Below are positions 1 to 42,976 of a stretch of 42,976 nucleotides of DNA, in pieces (the first letter of the stretch is position 1; each line of letters starts with the position of its first letter). A program made the position numbers and the translations under genes. The DNA is from a virus. The stretch is from positions 1 through 42,976 of IMG/VR virus record IMGVR_UViG_3300036768_000242; one strand, written 5' to 3'. The notes beneath the pieces were generated by a model. That model was given only the letters and a program-made list of their open reading frames with translations. It searched no databases and had not been told where the DNA came from.

Positions 1-204
1 AGGGACTCGGTCAGGGCCTCGGTCAGGGACTCGGTCAGGGCCTCGGTCAGGGACTCGGTCAGGGACTCGGTCAGGGACTCGGTCAGGGACTCGGTCTGGG
101 ACTCGGTCGGGGACTCGGTCAGGGACTCGGTCGGGGACTCGGTCAGGGCCTCGGTCGGGGCCTCGGTCTGGGACTCGGTCAGGGACTCGGTCAGGGACTC
201 GGTC
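1..204 (+). repeat. 12-bp coding tandem repeat, left part (17 units)
   Basis: Seventeen head-to-tail 12-mers with consensus [A/G/T]GGG[A/C]CTCGGTC, each encoding [R/G/W][D/A]-S-V. Only the first base of codon 1 and the second base of codon 2 vary; codons TCG and GTC are invariant. Unit order by the first two residues: RD RA RD RA RD RD RD RD WD GD RD GD RA GA WD RD RD. The array then leaves the pattern with AGG GGT CGG TGG. It is the other half of the array at 42389-42976. Confidence 0.97.
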
Positions 205-882
205 AGGGGTCGGTGGACCAACTACTTCGGCGGCCGGCTGTGGTGTGACTGGCCAGCATTCGTCGCCTACTTCCGCGACATCGTCGAACTGAAACTCGAC
301 CAAGGAGTCTGGGACAAAGCCCGCTCCTACGAGGACGCTATGTCCGCTGGATGGTGGTGGCCGACCCGCGCGTTCGTGATGGTCTGCGACCTCCCCTCCG
401 AACTACACATCGAATCAGCCGGTGGCCGTGACCGACTGCACTGCGAAACCGGGCCGGCCGTCAAATGGGCCGACGGATGGGGCGTGCACTCCTGGCACGG
501 AACCCGCGTACCCGCCGACCTCATCGAAACCGGCTGGGACGTAGAGCGAATCATGGCCGAACGCAACACGGAGATCCGCAGGTGCGCGATCGAGCGGATG
601 GGCTGGGACCAGTTCGTCATGGCCGCGGGATTGAAGCTCACCGACGAGGCACCTGACCCGGGCAACCCCGGGCAGATCCTGCGGTTGTACGACGTGCCCC
701 GCAAGGTGCTGGATCTGCCGGTGCGGGTCCTGGTGGCGCATAACGCGACGCGTGAGCGTGACGGTCAGCGCCACACGTTCGGGTTGACGATCCCGACGGA
801 TTGCCGGACCGCGCTGGCGGCCGCCGCGTGGACTTTCGACCTCACGGAAGCCGAATACAAGAACCTCGCCCGCGCAAGCTGA
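1..882 (+). CDS. DUF6745-like repeat protein, C-terminal part (gene continues from 42122-42976)
   Basis: Frame 1 is open from base 1 to the TGA at 880-882 and continues, without a frame change, the gene that starts at 42122. Visible order: 17 tetrapeptide units of the form [R/G/W][D/A]SV (1-204), then a folded region rich in Trp. It carries motifs I associate from memory with the DUF6745 family: WWWP, LHCETGPAVKWADGW, SWHGTRVPADLIE, ERNTEIRRCAIERMG, and an AAAWTFDL segment near the end. No catalytic residues are recognised and the family's function is unknown to me. An internal ATG at 340 is a possible start but would drop conserved sequence, so it is not preferred. The family assignment is from recalled motifs and is fairly secure; any role is unknown. 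Confidence 0.8.
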   Translation, partial: RDSVRASVRDSVRASVRDSVRDSVRDSVRDSVWDSVGDSVRDSVGDSVRASVGASVWDSVRDSVRDSVRGRWTNYFGGRLWCDWPAFVAYFRDIVELKLDQGVWDKARSYEDAMSAGWWWPTRAFVMVCDLPSELHIESAGGRDRLHCETGPAVKWADGWGVHSWHGTRVPADLIETGWDVERIMAERNTEIRRCAIERMGWDQFVMAAGLKLTDEAPDPGNPGQILRLYDVPRKVLDLPVRVLVAHNATRERDGQRHTFGLTIPTDCRTALAAAAWTFDLTEAEYKNLARAS

Positions 883-915
883 GCCCGGTCGAAACACAAA
901 GGAAGGAAACACATC

Positions 916-1323
916 ATGGCAACTACAACCGAAATGATCGACGCCACCGGAGTCGATGTGATCACCGATCAGGATTTCGATATCGAAATCCCGGTCATCA
1001 AGGGTCTGCAGCGCCAGGGCGACGTGCTGATCCGGCCTGCGGCGGTACAAGCCCACACACGCGTTCCTGCCGCTGGTACTCCGGTGGTGCGCGGTGAGAA
1101 CGGCGGCAACACCCACGCCATCTACGCGGCAGACGGGCCGGTGTTCTGCGACACCTTCGCACCGGGCCGTGGCGAACTTCGGGTAGCGACTCTGCAGGTC
1201 CCGGAGGGCTCCACCGCGTACATGGGCCACCCGGAGCACGGATTCCTCGGTATCGCGCCCGGCAGCTACGAGATCCGCCGGCAGCGTGAGATGGCCGAAC
1301 AGATCCGCATGGTCGCCGACTAG
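916..1323 (+). CDS. Small conserved-type protein paired with the DUF6745-like gene
   Basis: 135 aa, starting at ATG 916 behind a good ribosome binding site (AAAGGAAGG), 33 bp after the repeat gene, so probably co-transcribed. Visible features: RQGDVLIRP near residue 34, GNTHAIYA near residue 70, HPEHGFLGIAPGSYEIRRQ near the C terminus, then a short acidic tail. From memory, bacterial genes next to DUF6745 proteins encode proteins with the same QGDVL / HAI / HEEHG-type / RQRE succession, which would make this a conserved partner. That pairing is recollection, not a search result. No membrane segment or signal peptide is visible. Function unknown. Confidence 0.72.
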   Translation: MATTTEMIDATGVDVITDQDFDIEIPVIKGLQRQGDVLIRPAAVQAHTRVPAAGTPVVRGENGGNTHAIYAADGPVFCDTFAPGRGELRVATLQVPEGSTAYMGHPEHGFLGIAPGSYEIRRQREMAEQIRMVAD

Positions 1324-3538: not shown

Positions 3539-3843
3539 GCGCCGAGTCATGGGAACACCGCGGCGGGCACCGATCTCACGCGGCGGAACCAACCGCCGGG
3601 GGTGCGCAGATGAGGCTCCGCGATCACTACATCCGCAAAACCCGCCGCGGCTGGCTCGTCCAACCCGTCGACCTACGCGACGGCCAGAAACCCTCCGAGA
3701 TCGTCGAGCCCTTCGCCGAGGCCGCGGCGATCGCGCTGCCGCAGACCACCTGCACAGTTCACGTGGTCGGCCAAGCCCACGACGCGGCGCTGGCCATCGC
3801 GCCAGGGGGCAGCGTTACCCGCCTCCCGGCGGTGTTGCCATGA
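3535..3843 (+). CDS. Hypothetical protein
   Basis: 102 aa, ATG 3535 in an ATGA overlap. After about 25 low-complexity residues comes a compact segment (MRLRDHYIRKTRRGWLVQPV, which could itself be an internal start) that looks like a small mixed alpha/beta domain. No family recognised. Stop overlaps the RuvC-like start. Confidence 0.65.
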   Translation: MSAESWEHRGGHRSHAAEPTAGGAQMRLRDHYIRKTRRGWLVQPVDLRDGQKPSEIVEPFAEAAAIALPQTTCTVHVVGQAHDAALAIAPGGSVTRLPAVLP

Positions 3844-4406
3844 GCATCATCGTGGGCATCGATCCGTCGCTGACTTCAGCGGGTATCGCGATCCTCCGCG
3901 ACGGCCACCCCGTACTCCTCACCAGCGTGGGCCACAAGAGCACCCACGGCCGCGACTACGGGCACCGCTCGGATCGGATCGTCAGCCAGTGCCGGGCCGT
4001 CCTCGACGCCGTGTTCACACGCGAGGGCCGCTACCAGTGCCACGTTGACCTTGCCGTCATCGAAGGCCCCTCCTACGGTGACAACCTCCCGTCCAACCAC
4101 GACCGCGCAGGCCTGTTCTGGGGGCTCTACAGCGCGCTGCGCGCCAAACGAGTCCCCACCGCGGTGGTAGCACCGGCCACCCGCTCAAAATGGGCCACCG
4201 GCCACGGCAGGGCCTCAAAGGCCGACGTTCTCGCCGCCGTCCGCACGTGGTGGCCCGACGTGCCGATCGCCAATCACGACGTGGCCGATTCCGCCGTGCT
4301 CGCCGCGATGGGCGCCCTCCACCACGGCGAACTCCCCTGGGAACCCCGCAACTACCAACGCAACGGACTCGACAGCGTGAACTGGCCAGAAGGAGCGCGG
4401 AAGTGA
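3840..4406 (+). CDS. RuvC-like Holliday junction resolvase
   Basis: 188 aa, starting at ATG 3840 (ATGA overlap). The RNase H-like fold is recognisable: IVGIDPSLTSAG with first acidic residue D8, VIEGPSYG with E75, a basic KADVLAAV helix, and a C-terminal IANHDVADSAVLA motif supplying D147/D150. Length fits phage RuvC-like resolvases. The likely role is cutting branched DNA made during replication or recombination before packaging; the genome also encodes RecE-like and RecT proteins, consistent with recombination-dependent replication. Confidence 0.88.
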   Translation: MSIIVGIDPSLTSAGIAILRDGHPVLLTSVGHKSTHGRDYGHRSDRIVSQCRAVLDAVFTREGRYQCHVDLAVIEGPSYGDNLPSNHDRAGLFWGLYSALRAKRVPTAVVAPATRSKWATGHGRASKADVLAAVRTWWPDVPIANHDVADSAVLAAMGALHHGELPWEPRNYQRNGLDSVNWPEGARK

Positions 4407-33960: not shown

Positions 33961-34809
33961 CTAGCTGGCGATCTTTCCGCCCCGGAACGGATCAAGACGA
34001 TTGATCGCCGCGTGGCGTCGCTCGTCCGGGACTTTCAGGTAGATGGCAGTGGTGGTTAGCAATTTATGCCTAAGTAACGTTTGCACATCCCGAACGTCAG
34101 CTCCGTCATCGAGCAACGTCGTACCGAACCAATGCCGCAATTTGTGGGGCGTGCCCGCAACCGCCGCGCGGCGCATAGCGTTTCCGATGATGTCCGAGAC
34201 TCCTTTGGACCGGATGTGTTGTCCAGGTCTTCTGGAATTTGCTGGGAACCACCATCCGCGGGATGGCATCGTAGCTGCGGCTTCCACCAGAAGCGGGTGG
34301 AGCGGGAGTGTGGATCGGGTTCCGCCTTTGCCCTCAACGTAGATCGTCCGGGCCGCCACATCAACGTCCACCCCGCGGACCTTCGCGATCTCATGCACGC
34401 GCATCCCGGCTAGGCTGGCCAGCAGAATCATGACCCTGGTGCGGTGGTGCATCCTGCTCTTGAGGAGTCGAATCAGCCCGTCGTCGCTAACTGGCCTGGG
34501 CATGAGCTCCGGGTAGCGCGGCGCGCCGACTTTGATCATGGGATTGTCGGCGCGATGGTCCATGAGACAGAGCCATTTGAACCACGCGCGTAGGTAGCTG
34601 TGGTAGGTGGCCGCCGTGGCGTCTGACCATTCGGGATGTCGGCCGATCCAGCGAATGATGTCGTCGGGACTTGCGGTATGAGGCGAACAGCCGGATTCGG
34701 TTGTGAAAAGGGTTATGACGCGGATTCGCTCGGTAACTGTGCGGTCAGCGCGGCGTGCCGCTACTTGCCATAGTCGCCAATCAACGATGAGAGGGTGGGG
34801 TGAATTCAT
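33961..34809 (-). CDS. int: Tyrosine integrase, short (apparently arm-less)
   Basis: 282 aa, ATG 34809 (complement) with GGTGAGG upstream. Catalytic residues visible: R137 in AGMRVHEIAKV, K161 in the EGKGGTR turn, H222-x2-R225 in HKLRHWFGT, H248 in LLRHKL and Tyr257 in TTTAIY. The core-binding domain begins almost at once (residues 8-90), leaving no room for a usual N-terminal arm-type-binding domain, as described for phage Brujita integrase. Adjacent to attP; catalyses site-specific integration into a host tRNA gene. Confidence 0.93.
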   Translation of the reverse strand: MNSPHPLIVDWRLWQVAARRADRTVTERIRVITLFTTESGCSPHTASPDDIIRWIGRHPEWSDATAATYHSYLRAWFKWLCLMDHRADNPMIKVGAPRYPELMPRPVSDDGLIRLLKSRMHHRTRVMILLASLAGMRVHEIAKVRGVDVDVAARTIYVEGKGGTRSTLPLHPLLVEAAATMPSRGWWFPANSRRPGQHIRSKGVSDIIGNAMRRAAVAGTPHKLRHWFGTTLLDDGADVRDVQTLLRHKLLTTTAIYLKVPDERRHAAINRLDPFRGGKIAS

Positions 34810-35396: not shown

Positions 35397-35630
35397 GTGA
35401 GTATTTCTCCCTCCGAAGCGGTCGCCGAAGAGGTTAGGGCGGGACTGGCGCGCAAGCGCATCTCTCAAGCCAGAGCCGCCAAGCACCTCAATATCGGGCA
35501 AGCCTCCATGTCTCGACGGCTCGCCGGTACCTACCCCTTCACTGTTGACGAGCTCTACAAACTGGGTGAACTCCTCGGCGTTCCCGTACGTCAGCTGTTG
35601 GCCGCCGAACGCGCCGAGGCGGCATCGTGA
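35397..35630 (+). CDS. cro: Cro-like helix-turn-helix regulator
   Basis: 77 aa from GTG 35397 (ATG 35385 is possible). HTH around residues 17-45 (RISQARAAKHLNIGQASMSR then FTVDELYKLGELLGVPV), close in pattern to the repressor's HTH, as in lambda-type switches. No ribosome binding site is seen, fitting a nearly leaderless message. First gene of the early rightward operon; stop overlaps the antirepressor GTG. Confidence 0.82.
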   Translation: MSISPSEAVAEEVRAGLARKRISQARAAKHLNIGQASMSRRLAGTYPFTVDELYKLGELLGVPVRQLLAAERAEAAS

Positions 35631-36412
35631 CCGCCGCCCTGGAGCTGTTCACCTACGCGGACCAGCCGGTGCGGGTCGTGATCGTTGACGGCGAACCGTG
35701 GTTCGTCCTAGCCGATCTATGCAAGGTCCTCGCCATCGCGAACCCAAGCAACGTCGCCGCGCGTCTTGATCAGGACGGCATCAATACCCTCCGGCTAGCG
35801 GAGGGTATTCGCGGCAACCCGAACGTGACAGTCGTCAACGAGCCGAACATGTACGAGGTCGTCATTCGCTCCGACAAACCGGAAGCGGTCGCGTTCCGTC
35901 GGTGGATCACGGGCGAAGTCCTGCCCGCCATCCGAAAGACGGGCGGGTACTCAACCGCCCCCGCCCTCACTGAAGACGAGATTGTGCACCAGGCGCTCGC
36001 CATCACCGCGCGCCGGGTCGAGGAACTGACCGAACGGGTAGCCGAACTCGAACCCAAAGCCGAGGTCGCCGATCGCATCCTCAACGCCGAGGGCGACCTA
36101 TCCGTGCGCGACACCGCACAGGCGCTCACCCGCGCCGGGGTGAAGGTCGGGCAGAACCGCCTCTTCGCCGCACTGGAGAAGCACTACCGCTGGATCAGCC
36201 GATCACCCGGTGACGGCAGATACCGCGTCAAGCAAGCGGCCATCGAGGCCGGCTACATGTCGGTCATCCCGCAATCGCACTACCACCCGAAAACCGGTGT
36301 GCTTGTTCTCGACCCGCCGCAGCCACGGGTCACGCCGAAGGGGTTGCAGCGCATCCTGACCGACCACGGCGCTGAGAAGTTGGCCGCCGAGCGGGCGGAG
36401 GCGTCGGCGTGA
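35627..36412 (+). CDS. BRO/KilA-C-type antirepressor
   Basis: 261 aa, GTG 35627 (GTGA overlap). N-terminal BRO-N domain (YADQPVRVVIVDGEPWFVLA, NVAARLDQDGINTL, SDKPEAVAFRRWITGEVLPA), a coiled-coil linker (RRVEELTERVAELEPKAEVA) and a C-terminal ANT/KilA-C-type domain (DTAQALTRAGVKVGQNRLFA, HPKTGVLVLDPPQPRVTPKG). Such proteins interfere with repressors or act as early regulators. Position right after cro fits that role. Confidence 0.87.
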   Translation: MTAALELFTYADQPVRVVIVDGEPWFVLADLCKVLAIANPSNVAARLDQDGINTLRLAEGIRGNPNVTVVNEPNMYEVVIRSDKPEAVAFRRWITGEVLPAIRKTGGYSTAPALTEDEIVHQALAITARRVEELTERVAELEPKAEVADRILNAEGDLSVRDTAQALTRAGVKVGQNRLFAALEKHYRWISRSPGDGRYRVKQAAIEAGYMSVIPQSHYHPKTGVLVLDPPQPRVTPKGLQRILTDHGAEKLAAERAEASA

Positions 36413-39815: not shown

Positions 39816-40640
39816 ATGAGCCAATTCGTCCCACCTATCCGGCGCATCAAGACCGCCAAGGGTCACTATTACAAGGATGGTGCTGGGCACCGAATCCCCG
39901 GGGTGACAACCATTCTCGGCAACGGTGTCCCAAAGCCCGCACTCATCAACTGGGCCGCGAACTCCACCGCCGAAGCCGCGGTCGACCGCTGGGACGAACT
40001 CACCGAACTGGCCCCATCCGCGCGACTCAAGAAACTCCAAGGCGCCCGATACGAAGCCACCGACAAAGCCAAGAAACGCGGCACCGAAGTTCACGGCTAC
40101 GGGGAACGCCTCGTCAAAGGCGAAGCCGTCAAAGGCATCCCGGACGAACTGCGCGGCCACGTCGAGGCATACGTGCGGTTCCTCGACCAGTTCGACGTAG
40201 ACCCCATCCTCGTCGAGGCCACCGTTGTCAGCTACAAGTACGGATACGCCGGCACCCTCGACCTCATCGCCGATCTGAACACTGGGCCTGATGGGGCCGC
40301 CGAGCGGTGGTTATGTGATCTGAAGACCAACGAAAAAGGCATCTTTGCCGAGACGGCGCTACAGCTCGCCGCCTACCGCTTCGCTGAGAAATACCTCGCC
40401 GACGACGGAACCGAGCAGGACATGCTGAGTGTGCAACGCACCGGCGCCATTCTCATCAGCTCCGAATCAGCGCAACTGATTCCGACAACCAGTGGTGTCG
40501 ATCAACTCAAATCCTTTTGGTACGCAGGCCAAGTCGGGGCCTTTGTTGATTCAGGGCGCGACCTCATCGGCGAGGCCATCCAACCCCACAACCCCGACGC
40601 GCCCGTGGCGCGCGTCGTATTCGAGGAGACGAAAGCATGA
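39816..40640 (+). CDS. RecE/RecB-like exonuclease (PD-(D/E)XK family)
   Basis: 274 aa; start at ATG 39816 preceded by GGAAAGG; the open frame before it is rejected. Nuclease motifs: GYAGTLDLIADLN with the first Asp, WLCDLKTNEKG with the D-x-K pair, ALQLAAYRFAE with the Q-x3-Y of RecB/Cas4-type nucleases; an HGYGERL segment lies upstream. Adjacent to RecT with a 4-bp overlap, forming a RecET-like recombination pair that degrades one strand and anneals the rest. Confidence 0.86.
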   Translation: MSQFVPPIRRIKTAKGHYYKDGAGHRIPGVTTILGNGVPKPALINWAANSTAEAAVDRWDELTELAPSARLKKLQGARYEATDKAKKRGTEVHGYGERLVKGEAVKGIPDELRGHVEAYVRFLDQFDVDPILVEATVVSYKYGYAGTLDLIADLNTGPDGAAERWLCDLKTNEKGIFAETALQLAAYRFAEKYLADDGTEQDMLSVQRTGAILISSESAQLIPTTSGVDQLKSFWYAGQVGAFVDSGRDLIGEAIQPHNPDAPVARVVFEETKA

Positions 40641-41638
40641 CCGTGGCACACGTCCGCAACGACAGCATCGAGCGGGCAGCCGACCCGTTCCGGCCGGAGC
40701 TCGCGCGGGTCTCACCGCAACAGCTCAGCGGCTCGGATCAGTTCGACCGCATGGCGCGCTGGCTGGACCTGTTCATGCGCACCGCCGAAGTCTCAAAAGT
40801 GCTGGCGCGCACCGCGTTCGTGCCCGACCCGATGCGAGACAAACCTGAGGACATCGCGGCCTGCATGATGCGCGCGCTCGAACTGGGTATCGACCCGCTC
40901 GACGGGCTCGCCTCGATGTACGTGGTGAAGGGCAAGGTCGGTTTCTCGGCCGAGTTCATGCGCCGCCGCGTCCTCGAAGCCGGTCACGAAATCGTCTTCG
41001 AGGAACAGACCGACGAGCGCTGCAAGGTCCGCGGCCGCCGCGCCGGGTCGTCGGAATGGACCACCGTGGTGTTCACCAAGGCGCAGGCCGAGAAGGCTGG
41101 CGTGCAGAACCTGCAGAAGTTCGCCGCTGACATGCTCGTGGCCCGCGCGTCAAGCCGCCTGTGCCGCCGCGTTTTCCCTGACGTGCTCTCCGGCGCGCAG
41201 ATCATCGAGGACATCGTTGACGGCATCGTGATCGAGGCTGAGCCCGCCGATGGCGGGGGCCAGCCAGCCGCGGGCTCACGCCAAGTGCTGCAACGCAAGC
41301 CGCGCGCCGCACGGAAGACCACTGTCGAGCGGGTAGCGCCGCAGCAGGTCCCGGCGGCGGACCTTGACGAGTTCCCCGCGATCGCCGACCAGTCCGAGCC
41401 CGCGCCCGCCGACGAGGCCCAGGCCGGCCCGCCCGCCGACGTGGAGTACATCTCCGACGCGCAGATGAAGAAACTGCACGTGCTGTTCAACGCCGAAGGC
41501 CTCGACGACCGCGAATCCCGGCTGGCCTGGTGCGCGCAAGCGATCAGCCGTGACATCACCAGCTCGAAGGACCTCACGAAGGCCGAGGCCTCTTCGATCA
41601 TCGACATCCTCGAAAACGCCCAGCAGCAAGGAAACTAA
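40637..41638 (+). CDS. RecT-family ssDNA-annealing protein
   Basis: 333 aa, ATG 40637 (overlaps exonuclease stop). RecT-like core: MARWLDLFMRTAEVSKVLAR, ACMMRALELGIDPLDGLASM, YVVKGKVGFSAEFMRRRVLE, ADMLVARASSRLCRRVFPDV. The last third is a disordered acidic and Pro/Ala-rich linker plus a small helical domain (ISDAQMKKLHVLFNAEGLDD). Anneals complementary strands for phage recombination. Confidence 0.88.
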   Translation: MTVAHVRNDSIERAADPFRPELARVSPQQLSGSDQFDRMARWLDLFMRTAEVSKVLARTAFVPDPMRDKPEDIAACMMRALELGIDPLDGLASMYVVKGKVGFSAEFMRRRVLEAGHEIVFEEQTDERCKVRGRRAGSSEWTTVVFTKAQAEKAGVQNLQKFAADMLVARASSRLCRRVFPDVLSGAQIIEDIVDGIVIEAEPADGGGQPAAGSRQVLQRKPRAARKTTVERVAPQQVPAADLDEFPAIADQSEPAPADEAQAGPPADVEYISDAQMKKLHVLFNAEGLDDRESRLAWCAQAISRDITSSKDLTKAEASSIIDILENAQQQGN

Positions 41639-41643
41639 CCGCC

Positions 41644-42129
41644 ATGACCCTCGTCACCGAGAAGCCCGAAGGCCTCCCCACCGAACCGAACGACCTCGAC
41701 AACATCGACGTGCCAGACGCGCCGCCTGAGCCCGCCAACCTCCTGCTCGGCAACCAGGTGCTGCTCTGTATGGACGCGCCACCCGAACCGGGTCAGTACG
41801 TGAAGCTCGAGGTCACGCTGCGGACAAGGAAGGACGGGCGCGAGCTGCTCGCCGACGGCACCTACGTCCACTTCCGCGCGATGAGCTTCATTTCGGCCAA
41901 GGTCACCGCCGACCCGTTCAAGCCGGTCGATGACACCCCGCCACCACCTGACCCGGAGCAGCCTCAACCTGGCCTGTTCGACCACGGCGGTGACCCCAGC
42001 CCGGAAGCGTCCGGCGCTGACGGCGACGAGGACCAGGACGGCGAAGAACCCCCACCATCGGGGAAGTCCTCAACGACATCGACGAATTCCGCCCCGCATT
42101 CAGCGACGCGAGCAAATAGCCATGCCTAA
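41644..42129 (+). CDS. Hypothetical protein with a disrupted C terminus
   Basis: 161 aa, ATG 41644. A small beta domain (residues 35-95: YVKLEVTLRTRKDGRELLAD, TYVHFRAMSFISAKV) and an acidic/Pro tail. Near the end a C5 run (42049-42053) appears to change frame. In the -1 frame the DNA reads TIGEVLNDIDEFRPAFSDAS and stops at TAG 42117-42119, just 2 nt before the repeat-gene ATG, while the annotated frame runs 7 nt into that gene with a Ser/Thr-rich tail. Probably one base is missing (or slippage is used). Confidence 0.6.
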   Translation: MTLVTEKPEGLPTEPNDLDNIDVPDAPPEPANLLLGNQVLLCMDAPPEPGQYVKLEVTLRTRKDGRELLADGTYVHFRAMSFISAKVTADPFKPVDDTPPPPDPEQPQPGLFDHGGDPSPEASGADGDEDQDGEEPPPSGKSSTTSTNSAPHSATRANSHA

Positions 42130-42976
42130 ACAAATCACCACCCTCACCCCAGCGCAACACGACCGCATGGCCTCATTCGCCCGCGAGTGGATCGAATACG
42201 GCTGGCGCACAGCACCACTCACCGAAGAGGAGTGGGCCGTCTGGGAAGCCGGCGCACGCAAGTGCTACGAGCACGCCGGCATCCCCTTCCCCTGGCCGGG
42301 TGTCGTTGTTCGTGTTTCTTCGCCGCTCGTCGGGGCGTACGCCGCCCCGATCGCGGGTCACATCCTTGATGAGATCCGGCGAGGCAACGGGGACTCGGTC
42401 GGGGCCTCGGTCTGGGACTCGGTCGGGGACTCGGTCAGGGCCTCGGTCGGGGCCTCGGTCTGGGACTCGGTCAGGGCCTCGGTCAGGGACTCGGTCAGGG
42501 CCTCGGTCAGGGACTCGGTCAGGGACTCGGTCAGGGACTCGGTCAGGGCCTCGGTCAGGGACTCGGTCAGGGACTCGGTCTGGGACTCGGTCAGGGACTC
42601 GGTCGGGGACTCGGTCTGGGACTCGGTCGGGGACTCGGTCGGGGACTCGGTCTGGGACTCGGTCTGGGACTCGGTCGGGGACTCGGTCTGGGACTCGGTC
42701 AGGGACTCGGTCTGGGACTCGGTCAGGGACTCGGTCTGGGACTCGGTCAGGGCCTCGGTCGGGGACTCGGTCAGGGCCTCGGTCTGGGACTCGGTCAGGG
42801 CCTCGGTCAGGGACTCGGTCAGGGCCTCGGTCAGGGACTCGGTCAGGGCCTCGGTCAGGGACTCGGTCAGGGACTCGGTCAGGGACTCGGTCAGGGACTC
42901 GGTCTGGGACTCGGTCAGGGCCTCGGTCAGGGACTCGGTCGGGGACTCGGTCAGGGCCTCGGTCGGGGCCTCGGTC
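42122..42976 (+). CDS. DUF6745-like repeat protein, N-terminal part (continues at base 1)
   Basis: ATG 42122; 285 codons run in frame to the end of the window. N-terminal domain of 89 residues (TLTPAQHDRMASFAREWIEY, WEAGARKCYEHAGIPFPW, SSPLVGAYAAPIAGHILDEI), recalled as the usual beginning of DUF6745 proteins, then 49 copies of [R/G/W][D/A]SV. The array ends on a complete codon and base 1 starts the next unit, so the gene is continuous across the window ends. Total protein length depends on the true repeat number. Immediately downstream of the recombination genes. Confidence 0.8.
   Translation, partial: MPKQITTLTPAQHDRMASFAREWIEYGWRTAPLTEEEWAVWEAGARKCYEHAGIPFPWPGVVVRVSSPLVGAYAAPIAGHILDEIRRGNGDSVGASVWDSVGDSVRASVGASVWDSVRASVRDSVRASVRDSVRDSVRDSVRASVRDSVRDSVWDSVRDSVGDSVWDSVGDSVGDSVWDSVWDSVGDSVWDSVRDSVWDSVRDSVWDSVRASVGDSVRASVWDSVRASVRDSVRASVRDSVRASVRDSVRDSVRDSVRDSVWDSVRASVRDSVGDSVRASVGASV
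42389..42976 (+). repeat. 12-bp coding tandem repeat, right part (49 units)
   Basis: 588 bp of exact 12-mers with the same two variable positions as 1-204; no unit is interrupted or out of phase. The last 14 units (42809-42976) match the first 14 units of the window (1-168) except for one unit (RA at 42917-42928, GD at 109-120). Trp units (TGG) are always followed by GAC and never by GCC. Confidence 0.97.

Follow-up and report, generated by a model that had tools for sequence, protein, structure and literature searches.

What gene lies across the left edge of this phage record, and does it act together with the small gene that follows it? The window, meaning the whole 42,976-base virus record, encodes a temperate tailed phage, with genes for terminase, portal, head protease, major head protein, tape measure, minor tail protein and endolysin, and with an integrase (33964-34809, minus strand) and an antirepressor (35627-36412). 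At the left edge, a reading frame is open from base 1 to 882, and the next open reading frame runs from an ATG at 916 to a stop at 1323 (ORF check); we use QGD as a working name for this second gene. A preliminary description had seen here a repeat gene followed after 33 bp by a small gene, together making up a functional module, perhaps in anti-defence. The coordinates and the 33-bp gap hold, but the frame 1-882 is incomplete and belongs to a gene that begins at 42122.

The window is a phage contig opened within a 12-bp repeat array, its left edge cutting the repeat gene. At the other end, 42390-42976 contains 49 further copies of the 12-mer found at 1-208, and the contig end and start fit in register and in frame at 42976/1. 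When joined there, the gene reads on the plus strand from ATG 42122 through 42976 and 1 to 882, and encodes 578 amino acids including 66 tetrapeptide units. It consists of an N-terminal helical domain (42122-42389, in continuous frame with the array and with 1-882), a first array part of about 49 units of the type D/A-S-V-R/G/W in which the contig break lies (42390-42976; TRF period 12, 48.9 copies, 91% matches; codon counts), a second part of about 17 units (1-208; TRF period 12, 17.3 copies, 92% matches) and a C-terminal part (209-882). The array is well beyond chance, as judged from TRF scores of 929 and 353. The start codon lies within an 8-bp overlap with the end of gene 41644-42129. In three unbroken relatives (L002, L026 and L056) the order RecT, homologue of gene 41644, N-part, array, C-part and QGD is uninterrupted, indicating that the repeat gene spans the contig ends. 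The N-domain is conserved in these three and also in L058 and L079.

The C-terminal part was identified as a member of Pfam family DUF6745 (PF20530; nucleotides 334-864, E 5e-32, 111 bits against a cut-off of 27). The Pfam match leaves out both the array and the partner gene. No function or paper was found for the Pfam family, and a literature search detected no paper mentioning 'DUF6745'. The QGD gene (916-1323, plus strand, 135 aa), preceded by a ribosome-binding-like GGAAGG at 901-906, matches phrog_27831 over residues 23-135 of 135 (E 7.8e-38), a group listed in PHROG as of unknown function. It carries all of the QGDVL, HAI, HPEHG and YEIRRQRE motifs pointed out in the preliminary description, and profile searches gave neither a Pfam nor an NCBIfam match for it. 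PDB sequence-profile searches returned nothing meaningful. Among known defence proteins, no PADLOC-DB 2.0.0 match was observed to E 0.1, save one repeat-driven match at 0.054, and assignment to a known defence or anti-defence family was rejected on the lack of a PADLOC match.

The association of the two genes was then counted from both sides. Starting from QGD, DUF6745 was found in the same locus in 17 of 17 viral contigs, at 13 of 13 loci on bacterial genome contigs, in all 11 records of named phages and in every plasmid record with QGD. The pair had been described as kept together in phages and in bacterial chromosomes; this was borne out, and the co-occurrence extends beyond this phage in every collection searched. 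Starting from DUF6745, QGD was present in 69 of 72 distinct viral contigs; where DUF6745 comes first, QGD lies within 150 bp of it in 60 of 65. The whole records of the three remaining contigs yielded no QGD, which is not decisive because all three are broken in the array. Whole-genome co-occurrence was counted in Actinomycetota: among 396 genomes, DUF6745 was above the cut-off in 10 and QGD was clear in 8, a ninth QGD match (E 3e-4, containing a stop) being left out of the count. All 8 are among the 10 genomes with DUF6745, and the genes are adjacent in 8 of 8; in one of the two DUF6745-only genomes the match lies near a contig edge.

The pair spans actinobacterial temperate phages, Microcystis phages, Deinococcus and Alphaproteobacteria. 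A Streptomyces-type QGD query reached Microcystis phages (Ma-LMM01 gp175 and others) and plasmids of Deinococcus, Methylobacterium, Skermanella, Streptomyces and Nonomuraea. The DUF6745 search retrieved the same phage and plasmid records, and the two genes are adjacent wherever annotation was opened. Freshwater-type virus contigs (L119, L121-L130) carry a weak QGD-like ORF 3' of DUF6745, which in L121 is a single ORF with an insertion. QGD was undetected at three plasmid loci of DUF6745 (two on cyanobacterial plasmids, one on a Mycolicibacterium plasmid), indicating that DUF6745 can exist without this partner. In the sampled sets, a QGD lacking DUF6745 was never convincingly seen, apart from retrieved stretches whose ends come before the place where DUF6745 would lie.

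In each of the 69 pairs examined the two genes share a strand; DUF6745 comes first in 51 of them and QGD in 18. The order flipped about three times on the tree, at least two of the changes being forced by well-supported branches, and the pair was kept together. The distance matrices of the two proteins correlate (r = 0.81, p 0.001), and since about three changes of order never separated the genes, their linkage is more than shared ancestry. In four contigs (L003, L086, L101 and L011), 0.5-2.6 kb is inserted between the two genes. The pairing is near certain to be real, and we consider it very likely indeed that DUF6745 and QGD form a two-gene functional module.

The surroundings of the pair bear on what such a module might do. 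In the window, all on the plus strand, it adjoins genes for a phage exonuclease (39702-40640; phrog_298, E 1e-41), a RecT-like single-strand DNA annealing protein (40637-41638; phrog_4171, E 1e-39), a small conserved protein directly 5' of DUF6745 (41644-42129; phrog_8336, with a homologue at the same place in L002 and L056), a replication initiation protein (listed ORF 1532-2098, true start probably further in; phrog_3926, E 2e-23, residues 68-182) and a RuvC-like Holliday junction resolvase (3840-4406; phrog_159, E 2e-47); the window carries an HNH gene as well. Another 12-bp repeat, imperfect and CAAGCAATGC-like with 7 copies, lies where the replication initiation gene ends (2079-2164) and looks like the iterons of a phage replication origin. 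Replication or recombination genes lie beside the pair in most phages tested: RecT, replication initiator and RuvC in L002; DNA methyltransferase and replication initiator in L016; replication initiator in L114; exonuclease and annealing protein in L010; RecT in L015 and L118; primase in L120; and Gam, ERF and a RepA-like initiator in prophiGD102-1.

In the Microcystis phage Ma-LMM01, the pair gp175-gp174 likewise lies on one strand within a region of DNA polymerase, exonuclease, uracil-DNA glycosylase and clamp loader genes. In contrast to the window, the order is reversed (QGD, then DUF6745) and the array is lacking; the two proteins are very divergent, with about 28-36% identity to Streptomyces-type queries. 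The adjoining gene gp173 encodes the uracil-DNA glycosylase and was placed in the middle (replication) expression class, gp174 and gp175 being unnamed in the text of that report (PMC5780444). As the glycosylase gene starts 2 bp 3' of DUF6745 (L131, gp173-gp175), the pair may be co-transcribed with it.

From such neighbours, the pair could be regarded as an accessory of replication or recombination, acting in DNA synthesis, annealing or repair, with the array as a flexible linker between DNA-associated domains. Exonuclease, RecT, initiator, RuvC, primase and polymerase genes recur beside it in unrelated phages, and a uracil-DNA glycosylase lies directly 3' in Ma-LMM01. Anti-restriction and other early accessory genes, however, occupy the same regions, the bacterial copies stand in another context, and the pair is present in only about 2.5% of the sampled Actinomycetota genomes, unlike a replication factor. 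We therefore consider an accessory role unlikely.

The bacterial context is that of the STM4011-STM4015 genes, beside which the pair was found in Streptomyces, Deinococcus and Methylobacterium (L064, L066, L132 and L133). These neighbours are the radical SAM genes STM4011/4012, the hydrolase gene STM4013, STM4014 and STM4015; as judged from a literature search, the cluster is almost unstudied. On the Deinococcus ficus plasmid pDFI2 (L135), a VWA-domain gene and a glutathionylspermidine-synthase-like gene come after the pair in place of the STM cluster.

The structure of QGD was predicted by AlphaFold2 with good confidence (pLDDT 87) as a helix with beta strands. Among 69 QGD sequences, in window numbering, H67, H105, H108, G116 and D135 are invariant and E107 is conserved in 68; G35 and D36 of the QGD motif are fully conserved, and Q34 nearly so. 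The set of three histidines and one glutamate suggests a candidate metal site. For DUF6745, the model of relative L056 shows a confident N-domain with helices at 12-86 (pLDDT about 90), a confident mixed C-domain, and the array as a low-confidence helix (pLDDT about 50-65). No PDB match below E 0.001 was obtained with either model. The best VIA-align Z values, 3.2 for QGD (NAD kinase; cupins at about 2.0-2.4) and 4.4 for DUF6745, are within noise, and naming of either protein by structure was rejected for this reason. In BFVD, one phage protein matched with a probability of 1.00 (E 1.6e-3, 22% identity). The QGD model also matched an uncharacterized protein of Acidianus rod-shaped virus 2 (probability 0.93, E 0.3), a possible distant relative of QGD in an archaeal virus.

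These conserved residues would fit QGD as a small cupin-like metal enzyme with DUF6745 as its partner or substrate, the bacterial pair belonging to the STM4011-STM4015 radical-SAM cluster and the phages carrying a metabolic offshoot. The near-invariance of the putative metal ligands, the weak cupin-like matches (Z about 2) and the radical SAM and hydrolase genes beside the bacterial pair are all in its favour. The fold matches are nonetheless at noise level, and no STM4011-STM4015 neighbours were found in the phages examined. Such a metabolic origin of the pair appears decidedly improbable.

The array gives a different kind of evidence. A 12-bp array lies within the DUF6745 gene in 53 of 72 viral contigs, 16 of which, like the window contig, end inside it. 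Every clean array combines two codons that are constant, or almost so, with others that vary. In the window, TCG-GTC is present in all 66 units and is followed by AGG in 40, GGG in 13 and TGG in 13 (R/G/W), and then by GAC in 48 and GCC in 18 (D/A). In other phages the framework is CAG-CTC, CAG-GTC, CAG-GTG, GCG-GTT, TCG-GCG-GTC or AGC-CTC, yet variation falls on the same positions and brings in R, G, W, Y, H, D, E or Q. Among 16 arrays, 66 distinct variant codons were counted, none of them synonymous and 63 in the two most variable of the four positions. About one quarter would be synonymous by chance (p about 6e-9, an approximate value that assumes independent variants). A repeat-bearing Bordetella phage carries a diversity-generating retroelement. 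In contrast, no reverse transcriptase was found in the window (no RVT_1 match; controls positive), and the variable codons of relatives differ beyond adenine positions; a retroelement of this kind was rejected for the window.

The array is also fast-evolving, as had been supposed at the outset. Near-identical genes carry 6, 40 and 56 units (L059, L060 and L062; 0-1 flanking changes, judged by eye), 19, 46 and 62 units (L111, L019 and L114; 0-1 changes in about 300 flanking residues), and 15 and 38 units (L091 and L020; likewise 0-1 changes in about 300 flanking residues), with the reservation that array lengths from short reads remain uncertain. Assembly collapse alone is insufficient to account for the differences, because the order of units also differs within all three sets.

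Alternatively, the array might be a linker prone to slippage, its variation neutral and devoid of function. Homologues without an array do exist, the units are young, and confidence in the predicted array structure is low. Drift of linked sites would not, on the other hand, lead the same two codons to vary in 16 arrays of differing frameworks with 0 of 66 variants synonymous, and a similar array in gp54 of phage Tweety is functionally tunable. Neutrality of the array is thus improbable. Most cellular members and the Microcystis-phage members are free of the array, indicating that it is not the core of the pair's function. Since these array-free members keep QGD, we propose that it is the DUF6745 ends, and not the array, to which QGD would be an obligate partner. 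The two proteins may interact physically.

The closest precedent for the array is Tweety gp54. In this protein, unique ends enclose 48 tetrapeptides encoded by 12-bp units; each tetrapeptide combines two alanines that never change with two residues that do. Its relatives, to which Che8 gp57 and PMC gp51 belong, have 26 and 15 repeats (PMC2884959). In mutants that overcome Phrann gp29/gp30, a prophage defence, the number of tetrapeptides in gp54 is raised or lowered, and the repeat number was proposed to tune the juxtaposition of the two ends (PMC9262239, review). In our recount of gp54 codons, GCC-GCA is present in 48 of 48 units, with GGG 34/TGG 11/CAG 3 and AGC 38/TAC 10 at the variable places (G/W/Q and S/Y), where third codon positions are invariant. 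The window gene thus resembles gp54 in that unique end domains flank a 12-bp array in which two codons are invariant and two vary, and in both cases the repeat number differs between relatives. Tweety is, like the window phage, a temperate actinobacterial phage, and its gp54 lies after an antirepressor and before a single-strand annealing protein.

The two differ in framework, Ala-Ala in gp54 but Ser-Val, Gln-Leu and similar in DUF6745 arrays, and the experiments on counter-defence are those done with gp54. Gp54 gave no Pfam match and hence no DUF6745, the Tweety region gave no DUF6745 or QGD profile match at E 0.01, and tblastn with the window C-domain did not find Tweety. The functional link is therefore by analogy of the arrays; we infer that the window protein works like gp54, though it is not of the gp54 family. 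Copy number also varies between isolates in the Bordetella phage VR2/bbp36 repeats, in a gene of unknown role (PMC2884959), the unit there being 24 bp against 12 bp in the window.

A role on the side of the host was also considered, in which prophages, plasmids and chromosomes would carry the pair for defence or superinfection exclusion, or as a toxin-antitoxin-like module, with the array tracking attacking phages. It would agree with the patchy spread over phages, plasmids and chromosomes of several phyla, with the occurrence of DUF6745 alone and the lack of a convincing QGD without it, and with the fast turnover of the array. No PADLOC model matches the pair, however; it is also carried by Microcystis phages of the Ma-LMM01 kind, where the neighbour gp173 is of the middle class, and the gp54 precedent is one of counter-defence. 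A defence role therefore seems rather unlikely. Against counter-defence, in turn, counts the position of some bacterial copies beside STM4011-STM4015 genes; the three plasmid loci of DUF6745 that gave no QGD match, the members free of an array and the low-confidence array helix likewise weigh against the module as we propose it.

The cassette is not restricted to DUF6745. Scanning of DNA for tetrapeptide arrays yielded at least 119 stretches coding for SVWDSVW. When the host proteins were clustered with array residues masked, a DUF6745 group of 27 ORFs and a second group of 64 ORFs were obtained among the matches listed, together with 38 short ORFs that are nearly all array, some of them cut by sequence ends. 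One array host protein (L141) has a DUF7666 domain. Arrays of the DSV[R/W/G] type were observed in phage proteins without DUF6745 (L138, L140-L142 and L144 onward), including a large family of the form '...KIKPP...LLKDW-array-...SLF', and short array-only ORFs sometimes occur several per genome (L154). It is possible, if doubtful, that an undescribed counter-defence (or defence) pair extends across several phyla with a slippage-tuned form in phages, and that the variable di-residue 12-bp cassette is a general tuning element of unrelated phage families, its users being DUF6745, Tweety gp54, the DUF7666 protein, the 'KIKPP' family and the array-only ORFs.

We propose that the pair is probably an undescribed two-protein module, acting in phages as a slippage-tunable device of counter-defence or host takeover; turnover of the array and the gp54 precedent support the early suggestion of a module in anti-defence. 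DUF6745 would be built of three parts: a helical domain at the N-terminus, a beta-rich one at the C-terminus and, between them, the tetrapeptide array, which with a few to 62 or more units would serve as a spacer or rod of adjustable length. QGD would be a small beta protein with the (near-)invariant set of three histidines and one glutamate, working only with DUF6745. In phages the two would be produced together with the replication and recombination genes, and would most likely oppose host or prophage defence or otherwise take over the host. Slippage or annealing between 12-bp units would quickly give variants with more or fewer units, a change that RecT and the exonuclease encoded just upstream could drive. 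The number of units would then tune the spacing of the DUF6745 end domains to a target, as proposed for gp54. For length-tuned counter-defence as the role of the phage pair, we put the chance a little short of even.

The array breaks assemblies, and the DUF6745-QGD module is easily missed for this reason. As a strictly paired module over several phyla for which no published description was found, it is a clear target for functional work, and natural variants that are near-identical except for 6, 40 and 56 units make length tuning testable immediately. If array length sets the target, the gene would be a simple contingency switch for escape of phages from host defences, and Tweety gp54 would be one case of a widespread mechanism.
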